5,441 nt of DNA from an uncultured Woeseiaceae bacterium (GTDB taxonomy: Bacteria > Pseudomonadota > Gammaproteobacteria > Woeseiales > Woeseiaceae). Below, piece by piece: positions 95-4,789 of this stretch. Each line of letters opens with the position of its first letter. The stretch's first letter is position 1. The translations under genes and the position numbers were made by a program. The stretch lies in contig CAMYMP010000418.1 in NCBI GenBank assembly GCA_947259435.1, positions 1-5,441 on the forward strand, given 5' to 3'. The notes below the pieces were generated by a model. That model was not told the origin of the DNA. It did not search any database and worked only from the letters and a program-made list of their open reading frames with translations.

Positions 95-1684
95 TTAGAA
101 CTCCCAGAAAATGCTCAGTCCCGCGCGTAGTCGATCATACGCGCCGCGCGGGTCGGACGAATCAACGTCTTCATGTTCGACGTCGGCCCGCAAGGATAGC
201 CGGTCCGTGAAGCGATACAGCGCCGACGCGGAAACCTTGAGTTCCTGATATTCCTTCGCCGGCTGCGTCGGGTCGTTAAACGCGAAAGCATTGTCATACT
301 GCTGGTCGCGGTAGTCGATCTCGAGCTGCGCCGCAAAACTTTCGGAAAACTCTACGGTGGTCTCGAAACTGATCTTGTCCCTGGAATAGTTGTTGTAGCC
401 GACGTACTGATCTTCACGATCAGTCAGCGAATAGACGAGTTCGGTGACGACGCTCTCACTCAGCCGATGTCGCAGACCGAGTTCGAACATGCCGTACCGG
501 TACTCGAGGGTGGGGTTGGCGGCTGACGACTCGCCGTTTTCGTCCCTTGCCCGCCGTTCGTCGAAGGAACGAACGTAATACTGGTAGCCGATCTCTAGAC
601 GTGTCGTCCTCGCCAGCGGAATCTTAAAGGCACCGTGCAGCCAGTATGCCGACAGGTCGTACGATGATGCCGTCGGTACGTCCTCGTAGTCGCGTACCTG
701 GTAACTGCCGTCGATTTCGTATCGGAACCGGCCAATGCGGTTTCTGAGTTCCGCCCGGACGCCAGCCCCCGAGTAGTCGTAGCGTTCGGCAATGCTCGCA
801 CCGTCGTCGAAGCGCTCCAGGCCCTCATCGGGGTCGAAGTTGGTCTCCCCGTGACTGCGGATTTCGGCCAGATACGAGAGCTGCCGGCTCGATGACTTGC
901 CGTCACCGAGCGCGCGCTCCATGCCGAACCTCAGCTGATGGTCCGTTTCGTCCGCGTTATCCAGTTCCTTGTCGGTATAGTAGTCACCGCGATGACGATA
1001 CGACGCTATGAATGTGGAACGGTCGGAGACAGGATTGAAATACGTGGCCCTGATCCGGATCGGCACGAAGCTGCCGGACCGTTCGACAGGAACGACGGCC
1101 ACAGGCGGGTCCTGTGACAGATCGGTGTAAGGCTCGCTCGGTGCACGAAAAGCGTTACTGTCATGACCGAAACCGACAGAGAAAGACGACTCGAAACGCG
1201 GCTGTGACGCGCCGATCGTCTCGAGCGCGCGAACAGACAAAAGCCGCAGCTTGGGGCTATCGGCGTTGGCACGCGAGCGCTTGAACCACTTTTCGGCCGA
1301 TTGTTTGTCGCCTTCGCGATTGGCTAACACGCCGAGCTGATAGTGCGCGAGTGCAGCCATGCCGTCGTCCTTCGCCGCTTCGGTGAAAGCCCACCGCGCC
1401 TGCGAATACTGGTCGAGACGATAGTGTGCAAGACCCATGTTGTAGAACAGCCGGGAACTGTCCTTCCCGTTCGCCATAGCCTCGTTGTAGCCCGCCAGTG
1501 CGCCGGCGTAGTCGCTGTTCCTGAAAGCCACATTGGCCTGCTCGAAAGCCGCCTGCGCGGCGACGCTGTCGGCCGTCGCGAGTGAAGGTGCCAACAGCGT
1601 GGCACCGAGAATTAGACTGCACAGTGCCAGCCCGGAAAATCGAATGCCCATGTGGAAGTCCGCTCGTCTCTTGATGAAATCCAT
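95..1684 (-). CDS. TPR plus outer-membrane beta-barrel protein, Slam/DUF560-like
   Basis: This 529-residue protein is predicted to sit in the outer membrane with a periplasmic N-terminal helical domain. An uncleaved N-terminus is followed by a signal peptide with its hydrophobic core at about 16-33 and a likely cut after Ala-Thr-Ala at 38. Residues 43-144 hold about three TPR units, seen as alternating helices with NMGLAHYRLDQYSQA-like spacing. From about 164 to the end I count 14-16 alternating amphipathic strands, beginning with FSVGFGHDSNAF and ending WEF; the terminal Phe is the usual signal for the BAM machinery. This order (signal peptide, TPRs, barrel) is that of surface lipoprotein assembly modulators (DUF560, type XI secretion), although other TPR-barrel families share it. 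Neither start is decided by a ribosome site: the first ATG (1684) has none, and Met12 (1651) gives a more typical signal peptide. A terminator and an inverted repeat lie just upstream. Fold confidence is high; assignment to Slam is moderate. Confidence 0.85.
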   Translation of the reverse strand: MDFIKRRADFHMGIRFSGLALCSLILGATLLAPSLATADSVAAQAAFEQANVAFRNSDYAGALAGYNEAMANGKDSSRLFYNMGLAHYRLDQYSQARWAFTEAAKDDGMAALAHYQLGVLANREGDKQSAEKWFKRSRANADSPKLRLLSVRALETIGASQPRFESSFSVGFGHDSNAFRAPSEPYTDLSQDPPVAVVPVERSGSFVPIRIRATYFNPVSDRSTFIASYRHRGDYYTDKELDNADETDHQLRFGMERALGDGKSSSRQLSYLAEIRSHGETNFDPDEGLERFDDGASIAERYDYSGAGVRAELRNRIGRFRYEIDGSYQVRDYEDVPTASSYDLSAYWLHGAFKIPLARTTRLEIGYQYYVRSFDERRARDENGESSAANPTLEYRYGMFELGLRHRLSESVVTELVYSLTDREDQYVGYNNYSRDKISFETTVEFSESFAAQLEIDYRDQQYDNAFAFNDPTQPAKEYQELKVSASALYRFTDRLSLRADVEHEDVDSSDPRGAYDRLRAGLSIFWEF

Positions 1685-1702
1685 TATTCAAACAACAACA
1701 TA

Positions 1703-1736
1703 GATGGGTGCGCCCGGATTAACAGTGACACCCATC
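1703..1736. repeat. 8-bp inverted repeat in the barrel gene leader
   Basis: Perfect arms gatgggtg (1703-1710) and cacccatc (1729-1736) are separated by 18 bp. The repeat lies between the upstream terminator and the barrel start at 1684, within the only 55 bp available for a separate promoter or 5' leader. It could be an operator or an RNA stem that affects the leader. No protein or RNA family is recognised. Confidence 0.5.
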
Positions 1737-1739
1737 ACG

Positions 1740-1775
1740 AAAAAAAGGCCTTTCCCGGGGTGTCCGGGAAAGGCC
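1740..1775 (-). terminator. Rho-independent terminator after the acidic repeat gene
   Basis: Read on the minus strand, a perfect 12-bp GC-rich stem (ggcctttcccgg, 1747-1758, paired with 1764-1775) closes a five-base loop and is followed directly by seven T residues (complement of 1740-1746). This is a textbook intrinsic terminator. It ends transcripts coming from the sigma, membrane and acidic protein genes, and it stands 55 bp before the barrel start. The barrel gene therefore depends on read-through or on its own promoter. Confidence 0.92.
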
Positions 1776-1785
1776 GTACCTTCGC

Positions 1786-1805
1786 GTCAGTGGTTTGCCA
1801 CTGAC
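1786..1805 (-). other. Hairpin just after the acidic gene stop codon
   Basis: Perfect 8-bp arms gtcagtgg (1786-1793) and ccactgac (1798-1805) enclose a four-base loop. The hairpin starts three bases beyond the stop codon of the acidic protein gene and precedes the intrinsic terminator by about 10 bp. It has no T tract of its own, so it is more likely a 3'-end stabilising structure, or part of a bipartite terminator, than an independent terminator. Confidence 0.6.
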
Positions 1806-1808
1806 TGA

Positions 1809-2159
1809 TCAGGCGCCGTCGCTAGGCATCTCGTCGGAATCCTCTTCGGAATCGTCCTCCGAATCGGAATCGTCGAGTTCGCCGTCGGAGTCCTCACTGT
1901 CGAAATCCTCGCTGTCCGAGTCTTCACTGTCGGAGTCCTCACTGTCGACATCTTCACTGTCAACGTCTTCGCTGTCGCTGTCCTCGGAGTCATCGAGCTC
2001 GAGGATGCTGCCATCCTCGCTGTCCGAATCATCGAGTACATCGAACGAATCGACATCCAGATCGTCTGAATCGTCAGCCAACACCGCAGTCAGCGGTGCC
2101 ATTGCCAAGGCTATCGCCAAAGCCAGAGCCGACAAGAATGAGCTGATCTTTCCTTTCAT
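1809..2159 (-). CDS. Secreted Asp/Ser/Glu-rich pentapeptide repeat protein
   Basis: This 116-residue protein has a clear Sec signal peptide: lysines at 2 and 4, a hydrophobic core at about 8-27, and a likely cut after Val-Leu-Ala at 28. The mature part of about 88 residues has 35 Asp, 14 Glu and 21 Ser, with no Lys, Arg, His or Cys, so it is extremely acidic and almost certainly unfolded unless it binds cations. Residues 57-91 are seven tandem copies of DSEDx. There is no lipobox, so it is not a lipoprotein. A good AGGAG site lies 9 bases before the ATG. It sits 41 bp after the anti-sigma-like gene, probably in the same transcript, and is followed by a strong terminator. Function is unknown. 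Calcium or metal binding, or a surface or matrix role, is suggested only by composition. It may be a substrate of the TPR-barrel protein encoded next to it. Confidence 0.82.
   Translation of the reverse strand: MKGKISSFLSALALAIALAMAPLTAVLADDSDDLDVDSFDVLDDSDSEDGSILELDDSEDSDSEDVDSEDVDSEDSDSEDSDSEDFDSEDSDGELDDSDSEDDSEEDSDEMPSDGA
1887..1991 (-). repeat. Seven tandem 15-bp repeats encoding DSEDx
   Basis: The stretch encodes residues 57-91 of the acidic protein. The unit is Asp-Ser-Glu-Asp-x, with x being Ser, Val, Val, Ser, Ser, Phe, Ser in order. Third codon positions vary between units (for example tcg, tca and tcc variants appear on the plus strand), so the copies are not freshly duplicated. 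The peptide has kept its acidic character while the DNA diverged. Copy number may vary between strains. Confidence 0.85.
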
Positions 2160-2168
2160 CGTTTACTA

Positions 2169-2173
2169 CTCCT
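2169..2173 (-). promoter_or_regulatory. Ribosome binding site of the acidic repeat gene
   Basis: On the minus strand AGGAG ends 9 bases before the ATG at 2159. It is one of the clearest Shine-Dalgarno sequences in the window and supports this short, low-complexity ORF as a real translated gene. Confidence 0.8.
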
Positions 2174-2200
2174 GTGTTGCATTCCCATGCGCCTTTGACG

Positions 2201-2719
2201 TCAGATAACCTTGACGGCAAATTCGAATGTCTTCTCTTTACCCTGATGCTCGAGCCGCGCGAACACCGCGCCGCCGTTGCCGGAGCGAACGATGATCGGA
2301 AGCTCGAGAATGTTCGTTCCCGCCTTGACGGTCGTTCGCCAGCGGACCGAATCGCGACCTTCGTAACCGACGATTTCCACACCTTCGGGCAGGTCCACCG
2401 AGATCGCAGCTGCCTGCAGTTCGTGCTTCGAATCGAACGTCAGCCGGAAGGTCTTCTCGACGTTCATCGTGATCGTGACCGTCTCGAGCGCGGCTTCAGG
2501 CTGCGTCGGTAGCTCGGCCGGCAATACCAGGACCAGCCATGCCACGACACCGGCCGCAATGGCCGCGCCAATACCGGCTGTCGCGCGGAATCGGGTTTCG
2601 TTGCGGTGCGTATTGATGAGCGTCTCCTCCACGACGGCGTCGAGGAATCCGTCTTCGGGCGGCGGCACCGGCATGGCCTGTAGCGTGCGGCGCAGCGCCT
2701 GCTTGCGGGTGAAAGCCAT
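2201..2719 (-). CDS. Anti-sigma-factor-like single-pass membrane protein lacking a zinc finger
   Basis: The protein has 172 residues from the ATG at 2719, which overlaps the sigma stop as TGATG, implying translational coupling. Residues 1-44 are a charged cytoplasmic segment. It includes ALRRTLQAMPVPPPEDGF, the kind of stretch that follows the zinc finger in many zf-HC2 anti-sigma factors. One transmembrane helix lies at about 46-66. The periplasmic part (about 75-172) is beta-rich, with a pattern of alternating strands and an LPEGVEI/LELPIIVRSG core suggesting an Ig-like sandwich. Gene order directly after an ECF sigma factor and this topology argue for a sensor or anti-sigma role. However, no HxxxCxxC motif is present, so the usual sigma-binding domain is truncated or different. 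The ATG used here has a poor ribosome site. A strong site and a plausible anti-sigma N-terminus lie upstream in another frame. It could also be a plain membrane protein of unknown function. Confidence 0.78.
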   Translation of the reverse strand: MAFTRKQALRRTLQAMPVPPPEDGFLDAVVEETLINTHRNETRFRATAGIGAAIAAGVVAWLVLVLPAELPTQPEAALETVTITMNVEKTFRLTFDSKHELQAAAISVDLPEGVEIVGYEGRDSVRWRTTVKAGTNILELPIIVRSGNGGAVFARLEHQGKEKTFEFAVKVI

Positions 2720-2765
2720 CAAGAAATGGATCCAAGTTTTTCCGGAACTGATCGCAGTGCATCAT
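2715..2765 (-). other. Out-of-frame N-terminal remnant of a zinc-finger anti-sigma factor
   Basis: Starting at the ATG-ATG pair (2765 and 2762), this frame reads MMHCDQFRKNLDPFLDGF. It closely resembles the opening of zf-HC2 anti-sigma factors, where a Cys near residue 3-4, an acidic-x-Phe and a (Y/F)LDG motif are typical. After residue 17-18 the frame degenerates into Ala/Arg-rich nonsense, while the credible protein continues in the neighbouring frame from the ATG at 2719. Joining the two would need a +1 shift, and the joined product would still lack the roughly 25 residues that carry the HxxxCxxC ligands. The segment also overlaps the last codons of the sigma gene. It is interpreted as the surviving end of an anti-sigma gene that suffered an internal deletion. 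A frameshift error in the assembly is an alternative. Confidence 0.55.
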
Positions 2766-3342
2766 TTTCCTCGCCTCTATTGTCTTCAGACGCAGAAACG
2801 GCGCTTGCGGGTCCGTCGTCGAGCAAAAGTTGTAGCCGCTCGCGGGCACGGTGCCGCCGCGACTTGAGCGTACCGTGTGGAATCCCAGTAATTTCAGCGA
2901 TTTCCGTAATCGTGTAGCCCTCGACATCGTGCAGGTTGATGATCAGCCGGTGGTCATCGCTAAGCTGTTCGAGCGCGGCCTGCACCCGCGTTATGGTGAA
3001 TTCGCTCTCGACCAGTTCCTCGGTCGAGGCCTGCTCCGCCTGCGCGATATCCGGATTCGCCGAATAGTCTCTGTGTTCGACTATGCGCATCCGGCGCCGC
3101 AGGTAACGCCGCTGGTTGTCGATGAACTGGTTGTACAGGACGCGGTTGAGCCAGCTTGTCACGGAGTCGATATCAGCTATCTTGTCCGCCTGCGGGTGCA
3201 GCTTTAGCAGGACGTCCTGCACCAGATCCTGCGCATCCTCGCGATGCTGCGTCAAACGGTAAGCAAGCCGGTACAACCGCTCCAGGTGCGGCCGGACAAG
3301 CGCCGTGAACGACGAATGAATTTTGTTGCCTTCGTGCATCAT
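2719..3342 (-). CDS. ECF-type RNA polymerase sigma factor
   Basis: From the Met at 3342 the protein has 207 residues, typical for an ECF sigma factor. Region 2 spans about 10-82, with LVRPHLERLYRLAYRLTQHR, then EDAQDLVQDVLLKL in the core-binding helix, then the tryptophan-bearing SWLNRVLYNQFIDNQRR of regions 2.3-2.4. A variable acidic linker (about 88-117) joins it to region 4 (about 118-172). Region 4 holds ALEQLSDDHRLIINLHDVEGYT and the helix-turn-helix ITEIAEITGIPHGTLKSRRHRARERL. The frame extends upstream to 3543, but that part is unlike sigma factors and overlaps the divergent gene, so 3342 (or the adjacent Met at 3339) is preferred. No clear Shine-Dalgarno precedes it. The last 30 or so residues are low in conservation and overlap the anti-sigma start region. 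It probably directs transcription of its own operon, which is the usual ECF habit but is not shown here. Confidence 0.93.
   Translation of the reverse strand: MMHEGNKIHSSFTALVRPHLERLYRLAYRLTQHREDAQDLVQDVLLKLHPQADKIADIDSVTSWLNRVLYNQFIDNQRRYLRRRMRIVEHRDYSANPDIAQAEQASTEELVESEFTITRVQAALEQLSDDHRLIINLHDVEGYTITEIAEITGIPHGTLKSRRHRARERLQLLLDDGPASAVSASEDNRGEENDALRSVPEKLGSIS
2769..2778 (-). promoter_or_regulatory. Strong Shine-Dalgarno ahead of the out-of-frame anti-sigma start
   Basis: On the minus strand AGAGGCGAGG lies directly before the ATG-ATG pair. The AGAGG part is 8 bases from the first ATG and the GAGG part is 6 bases from the second. It is far stronger than anything before the in-frame ATG at 2719, and it lies inside the sigma coding sequence. 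It argues that the anti-sigma gene originally began here. Confidence 0.6.
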
Positions 3343-3415
3343 ATTGAGGATCGCGGGCCCGAGCGCGACTGACCGACCATTAGTATCATCAAACGAGGGT
3401 TCACGAAAGATAACT
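3343..3415. promoter_or_regulatory. Divergent intergenic region between sigma and membrane-TPR genes
   Basis: These 73 bp separate two divergent starts and must hold promoter elements for one or both. On the minus strand GTGAACCC (complement of 3397-3404) resembles ECF -35 boxes containing GAAC, and GATACTAAT (complement of 3379-3387) is a possible -10-like element, but spacing and match are not decisive. On the plus strand GAAAGA (3405-3410) is a plausible ribosome site five bases before the GTG at 3416. Autoregulation by the sigma factor is conjecture. Confidence 0.35.
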
Positions 3416-4789
3416 GTGAGCCAGCGCACGCTTTTGCTGATGGGCAAGCGTATTTTTGGGGGCGTATTGGGCACGTCTGGATACAGCGCTTTGCGAAACA
3501 ACCTGCATAAAACAGTAATCCTGGCCATCCTGGCCATCGTCATCGGCGCCTATACGCTGATGGCTTTTTGCTTTCCTTTGGCCTACATCTTTGCGACTTA
3601 CGAGGACCTGGTCGGTGAGTGGACGCAGACGTATTCGTTCCTGGCCGCAGCCGTACTTGCAGTTACTGTCGCTCTACGGTCAACGCATTATCGCTGGTTT
3701 TTCGCACTACTGGCCCTTGCCTGCAGCTACGTGTTTCTCGAGGAAATATCGTGGGGCCAGCGGATCTTCGGCTTCGAGACACCGGAGTTCCTGAAGTCCC
3801 GCAACCTGCAGGGTGAGGCGAACGTCCACAACCTGTTTACCGGGCCGCACAAGACGCTTCTGAAGGATCTGATCAGCATTGTGGTCTCGCTAGCGCTCGT
3901 GGGTTATGGCCTGTTGTACCCGCTATTGCAGAAGATCGGATGGCGAGTAGCGCTGTGGTTCGACCGAGTCGGTGTTGCGGCACCCCCTTTGATACTCTGG
4001 CCGTTCTTTACGCTTGCGGCATTCTTCGAACTCAAACCGCTGAGCTTCAATGAGGCGGAAGTTGCTGAATTGCTCATTGCATTCGCGCTGGCAACTACCG
4101 CATTGAATTACCAGTTCGTCACCCGGCACGAGCTGATGCCGGACGGCAAAAACTGGAACCGCAATCACTCTTTGCTCTTCGGCCAGCAGGTCATCGTACT
4201 TGCCGTTGCGATTCTCGGTGTCGCAGGTGCGACCACCGTGGGTTTCTACTCGGTACCGGCCAACAAGATGCGAGTCGACAATCGCATCGAGAACGGTATC
4301 GAAAAGTTTGCGGGCCGGTATGAGCGCTACGATCGTTGCGATATTGCGCTCGAGCTTTATCAGATGCTGTTGAAGAAGGAGCCTGAGCGCGTCTACATCC
4401 TGCGTAAATCGGCGGCCTGCTACCGCGACATCGACAAGCAGGACCTCTACGAGGAAACGATTGCAAAGGCGATCCGCATCGATCTCGACAAGTACGCCGA
4501 GGAACCGTGGCGTGCGTCCGTCAACCAGTCGCTGGTCCGAAGCTATCGGCTTGCACGGAATGAAGAACTGGCACAGGCACACCTGGACGAGGCCCTGCAC
4601 ATCGGCATAACCCGCATCACCGAACATCCCGACAGCGCCAGCGCCGCGTACTCCTATGGACGGACGCTGCAACTGGCGGGTCGTCTCGACGAGGCGTTCG
4701 AACAATTCACGCGAGCCTACGACATCGACCGAACCTCGTCGCGGTATCGGCGAGCGTATTTCGCTGCGCGAGCGGCGCTCAGCGACTGA
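3416..4789 (+). CDS. Polytopic membrane protein with C-terminal TPR-like domain, function unknown
   Basis: From the GTG at 3416 the protein has 457 residues. About seven hydrophobic segments lie near 33-59, 72-88, 93-109, 151-171, 188-206, 215-233 and 257-280. The loop after the third carries EEISWGQRIFGFETPEF (109-125) and NLQGEANVHNL (130-140). I associate this pattern with uncharacterised bacterial membrane proteins, and the paired Glu and the His look like conserved functional residues. Residues about 302-449 are soluble and helical with TPR-like periodicity, including ALELYQMLLKKEPE and AYSYGRTLQLAGRLDEAFEQFTRAY. With an odd number of helices the TPR part would lie on the opposite side of the membrane from the N-terminus. 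GTG is preferred because GAAAGA precedes it. An upstream ATG at 3323 would overlap the sigma gene, and an ATG at 3440 lacks a ribosome site. It is divergent from the sigma operon. No enzyme activity can be assigned. Confidence 0.85.
   Translation: MSQRTLLLMGKRIFGGVLGTSGYSALRNNLHKTVILAILAIVIGAYTLMAFCFPLAYIFATYEDLVGEWTQTYSFLAAAVLAVTVALRSTHYRWFFALLALACSYVFLEEISWGQRIFGFETPEFLKSRNLQGEANVHNLFTGPHKTLLKDLISIVVSLALVGYGLLYPLLQKIGWRVALWFDRVGVAAPPLILWPFFTLAAFFELKPLSFNEAEVAELLIAFALATTALNYQFVTRHELMPDGKNWNRNHSLLFGQQVIVLAVAILGVAGATTVGFYSVPANKMRVDNRIENGIEKFAGRYERYDRCDIALELYQMLLKKEPERVYILRKSAACYRDIDKQDLYEETIAKAIRIDLDKYAEEPWRASVNQSLVRSYRLARNEELAQAHLDEALHIGITRITEHPDSASAAYSYGRTLQLAGRLDEAFEQFTRAYDIDRTSSRYRRAYFAARAALSD

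Follow-up and report, generated by a model that had tools for sequence, protein, structure and literature searches.

The barrel of the Slam family, which serves type XI secretion, has 14 strands, and soluble cargo is known for this route, according to the available portion of the type XI paper. The barrels of PgaA and BcsC are 16-stranded (PMC9384988). In Pseudomonas, the Rlo protein RloA cleaves substrates with 8 or 10 consecutive glutamates but spares those with 6 or fewer, and the main text of the Rlo paper names no barrel or tetratricopeptide repeat (TPR) gene (PMC12239564). The subject here is a stretch of 5,441 bases, called the window below, from contig CAMYMP010000418.1 of an uncultured Woeseiaceae bacterium. 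Its minus strand carries four genes, encoding an extracytoplasmic function (ECF) sigma factor, an anti-sigma-like membrane protein, a small poly-acidic protein and a TPR protein with an outer-membrane beta-barrel. Together they are a conserved sigma-linked envelope module in which the four genes recur as one array. This module is described nowhere in the literature searched, most subscription papers lying outside the reach of that search.

The acidic gene and the barrel gene

A preliminary description of the window had proposed four same-strand genes in one array, and open reading frames (ORFs) and profile matches bear out all four. The same array is found in independent contigs whose barrels share 31 to 80% identity, as well as in a close relative, L001, from a gammaproteobacterial metagenome-assembled genome. 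Because the array recurs in independent contigs, it is more than a chance arrangement. As a transcription unit the proposal holds less well, since a terminator-like hairpin with a T run (1775-1747, minus strand; 12 pairs, 9 of them G-C) separates the acidic gene from the barrel, and the four genes are thus not a simple single transcript. Such hairpins occur in 25 of 38 gaps between the two genes, compared with 4.4 expected from single-base shuffling (20 shuffles per gap), which suggests that more of the acidic protein may be made than of the barrel. At gathering thresholds, Rfam gave no match anywhere in the window.

The association of the two genes was examined in the order to which the L001 genome belongs. 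When 296 genomes were searched for the barrel, 118 matched at an E-value of 1e-3 or better and 76 at 1e-27 or better. Seventy-five of these 76 (G199 was left out) yielded 78 loci, three genomes having two copies, and the pairing was counted in the 76 loci with at least 400 bases upstream of the barrel, which leaves out L070 and L154. A small gene encoding at least 20% aspartate and glutamate lies directly upstream of the barrel in 74 of the 76 loci, and the fraction reaches at least 30% in 69. The two loci without it are L120, with a masked stretch and a short gap, and L152, with a partial barrel. Sigma and anti-sigma genes are each present in 67 of the 76, and where adjacent sigma and anti-sigma genes are both missing, the small gene is still kept beside the barrel (8/8 loci). 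The small gene was chosen as the most acidic eligible ORF, a procedure biased toward acidity, and a count of ORFs in the first 41 loci served as a check: 37 have exactly one ORF with more than 30% aspartate and glutamate and the other 4 have none, and where present this ORF invariably sits immediately upstream of the barrel. The co-occurrence that the preliminary description had proposed to test is therefore present, and the barrel without an acidic gene, which it had named as the contrary outcome, is not the pattern in this order. These sequences give good support to the view that acidic gene and barrel gene form a conserved pair.

The window's acidic gene (1809..2159, minus strand) encodes 116 amino acids and contains tandem repeats at 1879-1985. 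From residue 30 onward, the protein has 48 aspartates and glutamates and 21 serines in 87 residues, with no lysine or arginine and with the word DSED nine times. It has no Pfam match, and 32 homologues were found. As previously described, its start resembles a signal peptide and is without a lipobox. By a crude rule, 73 of the 74 small proteins of the order start in the same manner; lipobox-like patterns in four of the 74 are read as chance matches within the hydrophobic core. A short head motif, typically DLDVTMEVLDD, follows the signal peptide in 71 of the 74 and takes the form DLDVDSFDVLDD in the window. The tail is variable, with a C-terminal motif in 55 of the 74.

The barrel and its relatives

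The barrel gene of the window is an open frame of 529 amino acids (1684..95, minus strand). Close homologues are mostly 518 amino acids long, so the true start is probably at 1651 and the gene at 95..1651. The protein matches TPR_16 above the cut-off and BBP2_2 just below it, and no BcsC, PgaA or PelB profile is among the families listed for it. Its structural model (predicted local distance difference test, pLDDT, 92.6) has N-terminal TPRs and 16 long strands. In Foldseek the best match of the model is BcsC, an exporter, with PelB lower in the list. By sequence, the best 60 of 141 matches between the barrel profile and solved structures all lie within the TPR part. A plasmid collection contained no match to the barrel.

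Beyond the order, 40 of 369 genomes of the class match the anti-sigma profile. In 36 of the 46 class anti-sigma matches, a barrel or TPR match lies on the same strand no more than 3.5 kb downstream; six of the other ten were inspected and four left out. The class count comprises 67 barrel places, after omission of four rows that were second pieces of places already listed. Apart from full-length matches in G001 and G007, these barrels are mostly of a shorter TPR-barrel type of about 415-491 amino acids. The small partners of this type carry a related head (such as VTMxV...IELP), and most of their tails are near-neutral. In L110, L111, L156 and L157, the small exported proteins contain charged repeats that are nearly perfect, such as DSRDDSN, SMSDRED and DEKDDAQ. 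In L160 and L161, an anti-sigma-like gene is followed by a gene for a small exported protein rich in histidine, arginine and aspartate and then by a gene that looks like LemA.

Partner acidity follows barrel type. The net acidic fraction has a median of 0.56 (range 0.24 to 0.77, n=74) for partners of the 16-strand barrel and 0.09 (range -0.18 to 0.45) for partners of the other type, the latter from 19 of 22 loci because the small gene was missed in L114, L115 and L170, although it is visible by eye in L114 and L115. As the loci are related by descent, p-values for this comparison are descriptive only. Where a genome has both types, the partner of the 16-strand barrel is the more acidic in 9 of 9 cases; the second copy in G057 (L033), not counted here, agrees with this. 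In several genomes the module occurs in two versions, with the TPR halves alike, the barrel halves different and the partners of very different acidity.

Profile-profile comparisons indicate separate origins for the two halves of the barrel protein. The TPR half matches the TPRs of the shorter type at E 7.5e-43 over 148 columns, compared with 1.1e-13 when other large TPR genes served as the control. The barrel half aligns with barrels of the shorter type at E 5.6e-11 over 206 columns, while against the barrels of another group of loci, L102-L108, it reaches E 1.3e-80 over 367 columns and is homologous over its whole length (hhalign). A chimeric protein, with its TPR half from the sigma-linked family and its barrel half from L102-L108-like barrels, is thus well supported at the level of sequence profiles. 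All seven of L102-L108 carry genes for an inactive RloB-like transglutaminase and for a glutamate-ligase-like ATP-grasp enzyme, with one or the other gene split into two pieces in L106 and L107. These enzyme families were assigned on L103, where Pfam 7TM_transglut and ATPgrasp_ST score above cut-off and NCBIfam RloB and TIGR02291 below theirs. None of L102-L108 has an ORF with more than 25% aspartate and glutamate. Large TPR genes also accompany the barrel in all seven.

Regulatory genes and neighbours

The sigma gene of the window (3342..2719, minus strand; 207 amino acids) has both ECF regions 2 and 4, with matches above cut-off to Sigma70_r2 (E 1.3e-12) and Sigma70_r4_2 (E 5.9e-15), and the same gene is present in L001. 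The anti-sigma-like membrane protein gene (2201..2764, minus strand) is disrupted in its N-terminal zf-HC2 part. Relative to L001, it lacks 68 bases near 2720, a gap not remarked in the preliminary description, which shifts the frame, removes the HxxxCxxC stretch and leaves an open frame at 2722..2201. This stretch is present in close relatives such as P0096; the gap may be a natural loss or an assembly fault. Among the relatives, 77 of 87 are 200-212 amino acids long and 61 of 87 have zf-HC2 (PF13490). The overlapping sigma and membrane anti-sigma genes, together with this domain, resemble the pairs of class I ECF sigma factors and zinc-binding anti-sigma (ZAS) proteins. In contrast to those pairs, the window anti-sigma gene is broken, and HxxxCxxC is absent from the first 90 residues in 46 of the 67 anti-sigma ORFs of the order, so that the membrane protein of this order may have lost the character of a classical zinc anti-sigma factor. 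A model of an intact relative shows a C-terminal beta domain, with a mean pLDDT of only 66.5.

On the plus strand, a divergent gene (3323..4789) encodes a membrane protein with C-terminal TPRs (TPR_12 above cut-off). It adjoins the module only in close relatives, with matches in L001, L032, L033 and L034 among the 41 loci examined. Downstream of the barrel, a protein whose start resembles that of a UvrD-type helicase is present in 7 of 7 loci (L035, L040, L056, L070, L071, L116 and L121), and this shared neighbour suggests that the module holds a fixed chromosomal place. Another neighbouring gene is presumably TrkA.

Readings of the pair and comparison with known systems

Based on the sequences and the barrel model, the leading reading is that the acidic protein is an exported client of the barrel, with a probability of about 0.45. 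It is favored by the pairing and its persistence away from the regulators, the single strongly acidic ORF of most loci, the signal-peptide-like starts and head motif, the hairpin, the barrel model with its match to BcsC, the enzyme genes of L102-L108 and the acidity contrast within genomes. Several observations weigh on the other side. Shared ancestry confounds the acidity contrast, and there are exceptions: the small partners of L110 and L111 have partly acidic repeat tails, and in L156 and L157 a strongly acidic repeat protein accompanies a barrel that lacks TPRs (309 and 323 amino acids). L158 has the sigma, anti-sigma and small genes but no barrel, a barrel is likewise missing from L160 and L161, whose small protein is of another kind, and in L159 the tail of the small protein is basic and the TPR-barrel is on the opposite strand. 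The predicted lumen, whose residues were assigned by strand alternation and not from coordinates, is only slightly positive (+3 in the window; mean +7.3, n=72). Its charge is not correlated with cargo acidity (rho -0.11, p 0.37), and with total net cargo charge the trend is in the wrong direction (rho -0.22, p 0.07). In addition, ordinary porins also rank high for the barrel in Foldseek and VIA-align, with scores that match those of exporters.

The last two points agree with co-regulated outputs that have no client relation, as does the BBP2_2 porin profile near its cut-off. The barrel would then be a porin or polysaccharide exporter and the acidic protein a cation-buffering polyanion, periplasmic or at the surface, the genes staying together since the same envelope stress calls for both. 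This explanation is possible, if less probable than a client relation; it does not readily account for the small gene remaining beside the barrel in all eight loci without adjacent regulators, and the window shows no gene for polysaccharide synthesis. Those eight loci also speak against a signalling role in which the small protein partners the anti-sigma protein in the periplasm and the barrel is a sigma target, and long repetitive tails of very different charge would be odd for a specific signalling partner. Such a role seems unlikely, even though in L158, L160 and L161, where no barrel was found, the small gene still comes after the anti-sigma gene, and most class anti-sigma matches have a barrel match downstream. 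The Slam-like barrel of the preliminary description, paired with an unusual client, is very improbable. A TPR domain and barrel beside a signal-peptide-bearing partner would fit it, as would the soluble cargo mentioned for type XI, yet PF04575 scores only 11.7 bits (cut-off 22, E 0.18), the long strands of the model number 16 instead of 14, and the partner has no eight-stranded barrel.

If the acidic protein is a client of the barrel, it would cross the inner membrane by Sec, and the short conserved head that follows the signal peptide could be recognized by the TPR domain or by the barrel's periplasmic mouth. The 16-strand barrel would then pass the disordered tail or display it at the cell surface, and in this order the tail may form a polyanionic coat there that binds cations. 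With the hairpin between the genes, much cargo would be made per pore, and the membrane anti-sigma protein might sense the state of the envelope through its periplasmic beta domain. A pair of cargo and exporter would add an export route with an unfolded polyanion as its client, and may represent a little-known way to send acidic chains out of the cell. In that case, genomes with two module versions would also be a natural experiment on client choice by TPR-barrels, and an outer-membrane exit would be suggested for loci with glutamate-ligase-like enzymes. A broader proposal, which we regard as rather unlikely, is that an unrecognized family of outer-membrane barrels passes both enzyme-made polyglutamate-like chains, at the RloB-like/ATP-grasp loci, and gene-encoded DSED or other poly-acidic proteins. 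In one gammaproteobacterial order, such a barrel would have joined the TPR domain of the sigma-linked module, the small partner turning strongly acidic.

Among described systems, Slam and type XI secretion share with the window a periplasmic TPR domain, a barrel and an exported protein encoded next door. However, known cargo has a C-terminal eight-stranded barrel, whereas the window partner is a poly-acidic repeat without one, and membership was rejected on the sub-threshold profile score, the strand number and the different kind of cargo. The exporters BcsC, PgaA and PelB are alike in joining N-terminal TPRs to a 16-strand barrel, as seen for the window in the model. They differ in that the window TPR part is far shorter and its neighbor is an exported acidic protein and not a set of polysaccharide genes, no polysaccharide synthase being among the module genes within the 5,441 bases; the TM-score of BcsC to the window barrel is only about 0.37-0.39. 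Although the Rlo system of Pseudomonas (RloA, RloB, RloC) differs in that no RloB-like or ATP-grasp gene is found among the window proteins, the barrel half of the window protein matches the barrels of the seven RloB-like/ATP-grasp loci.

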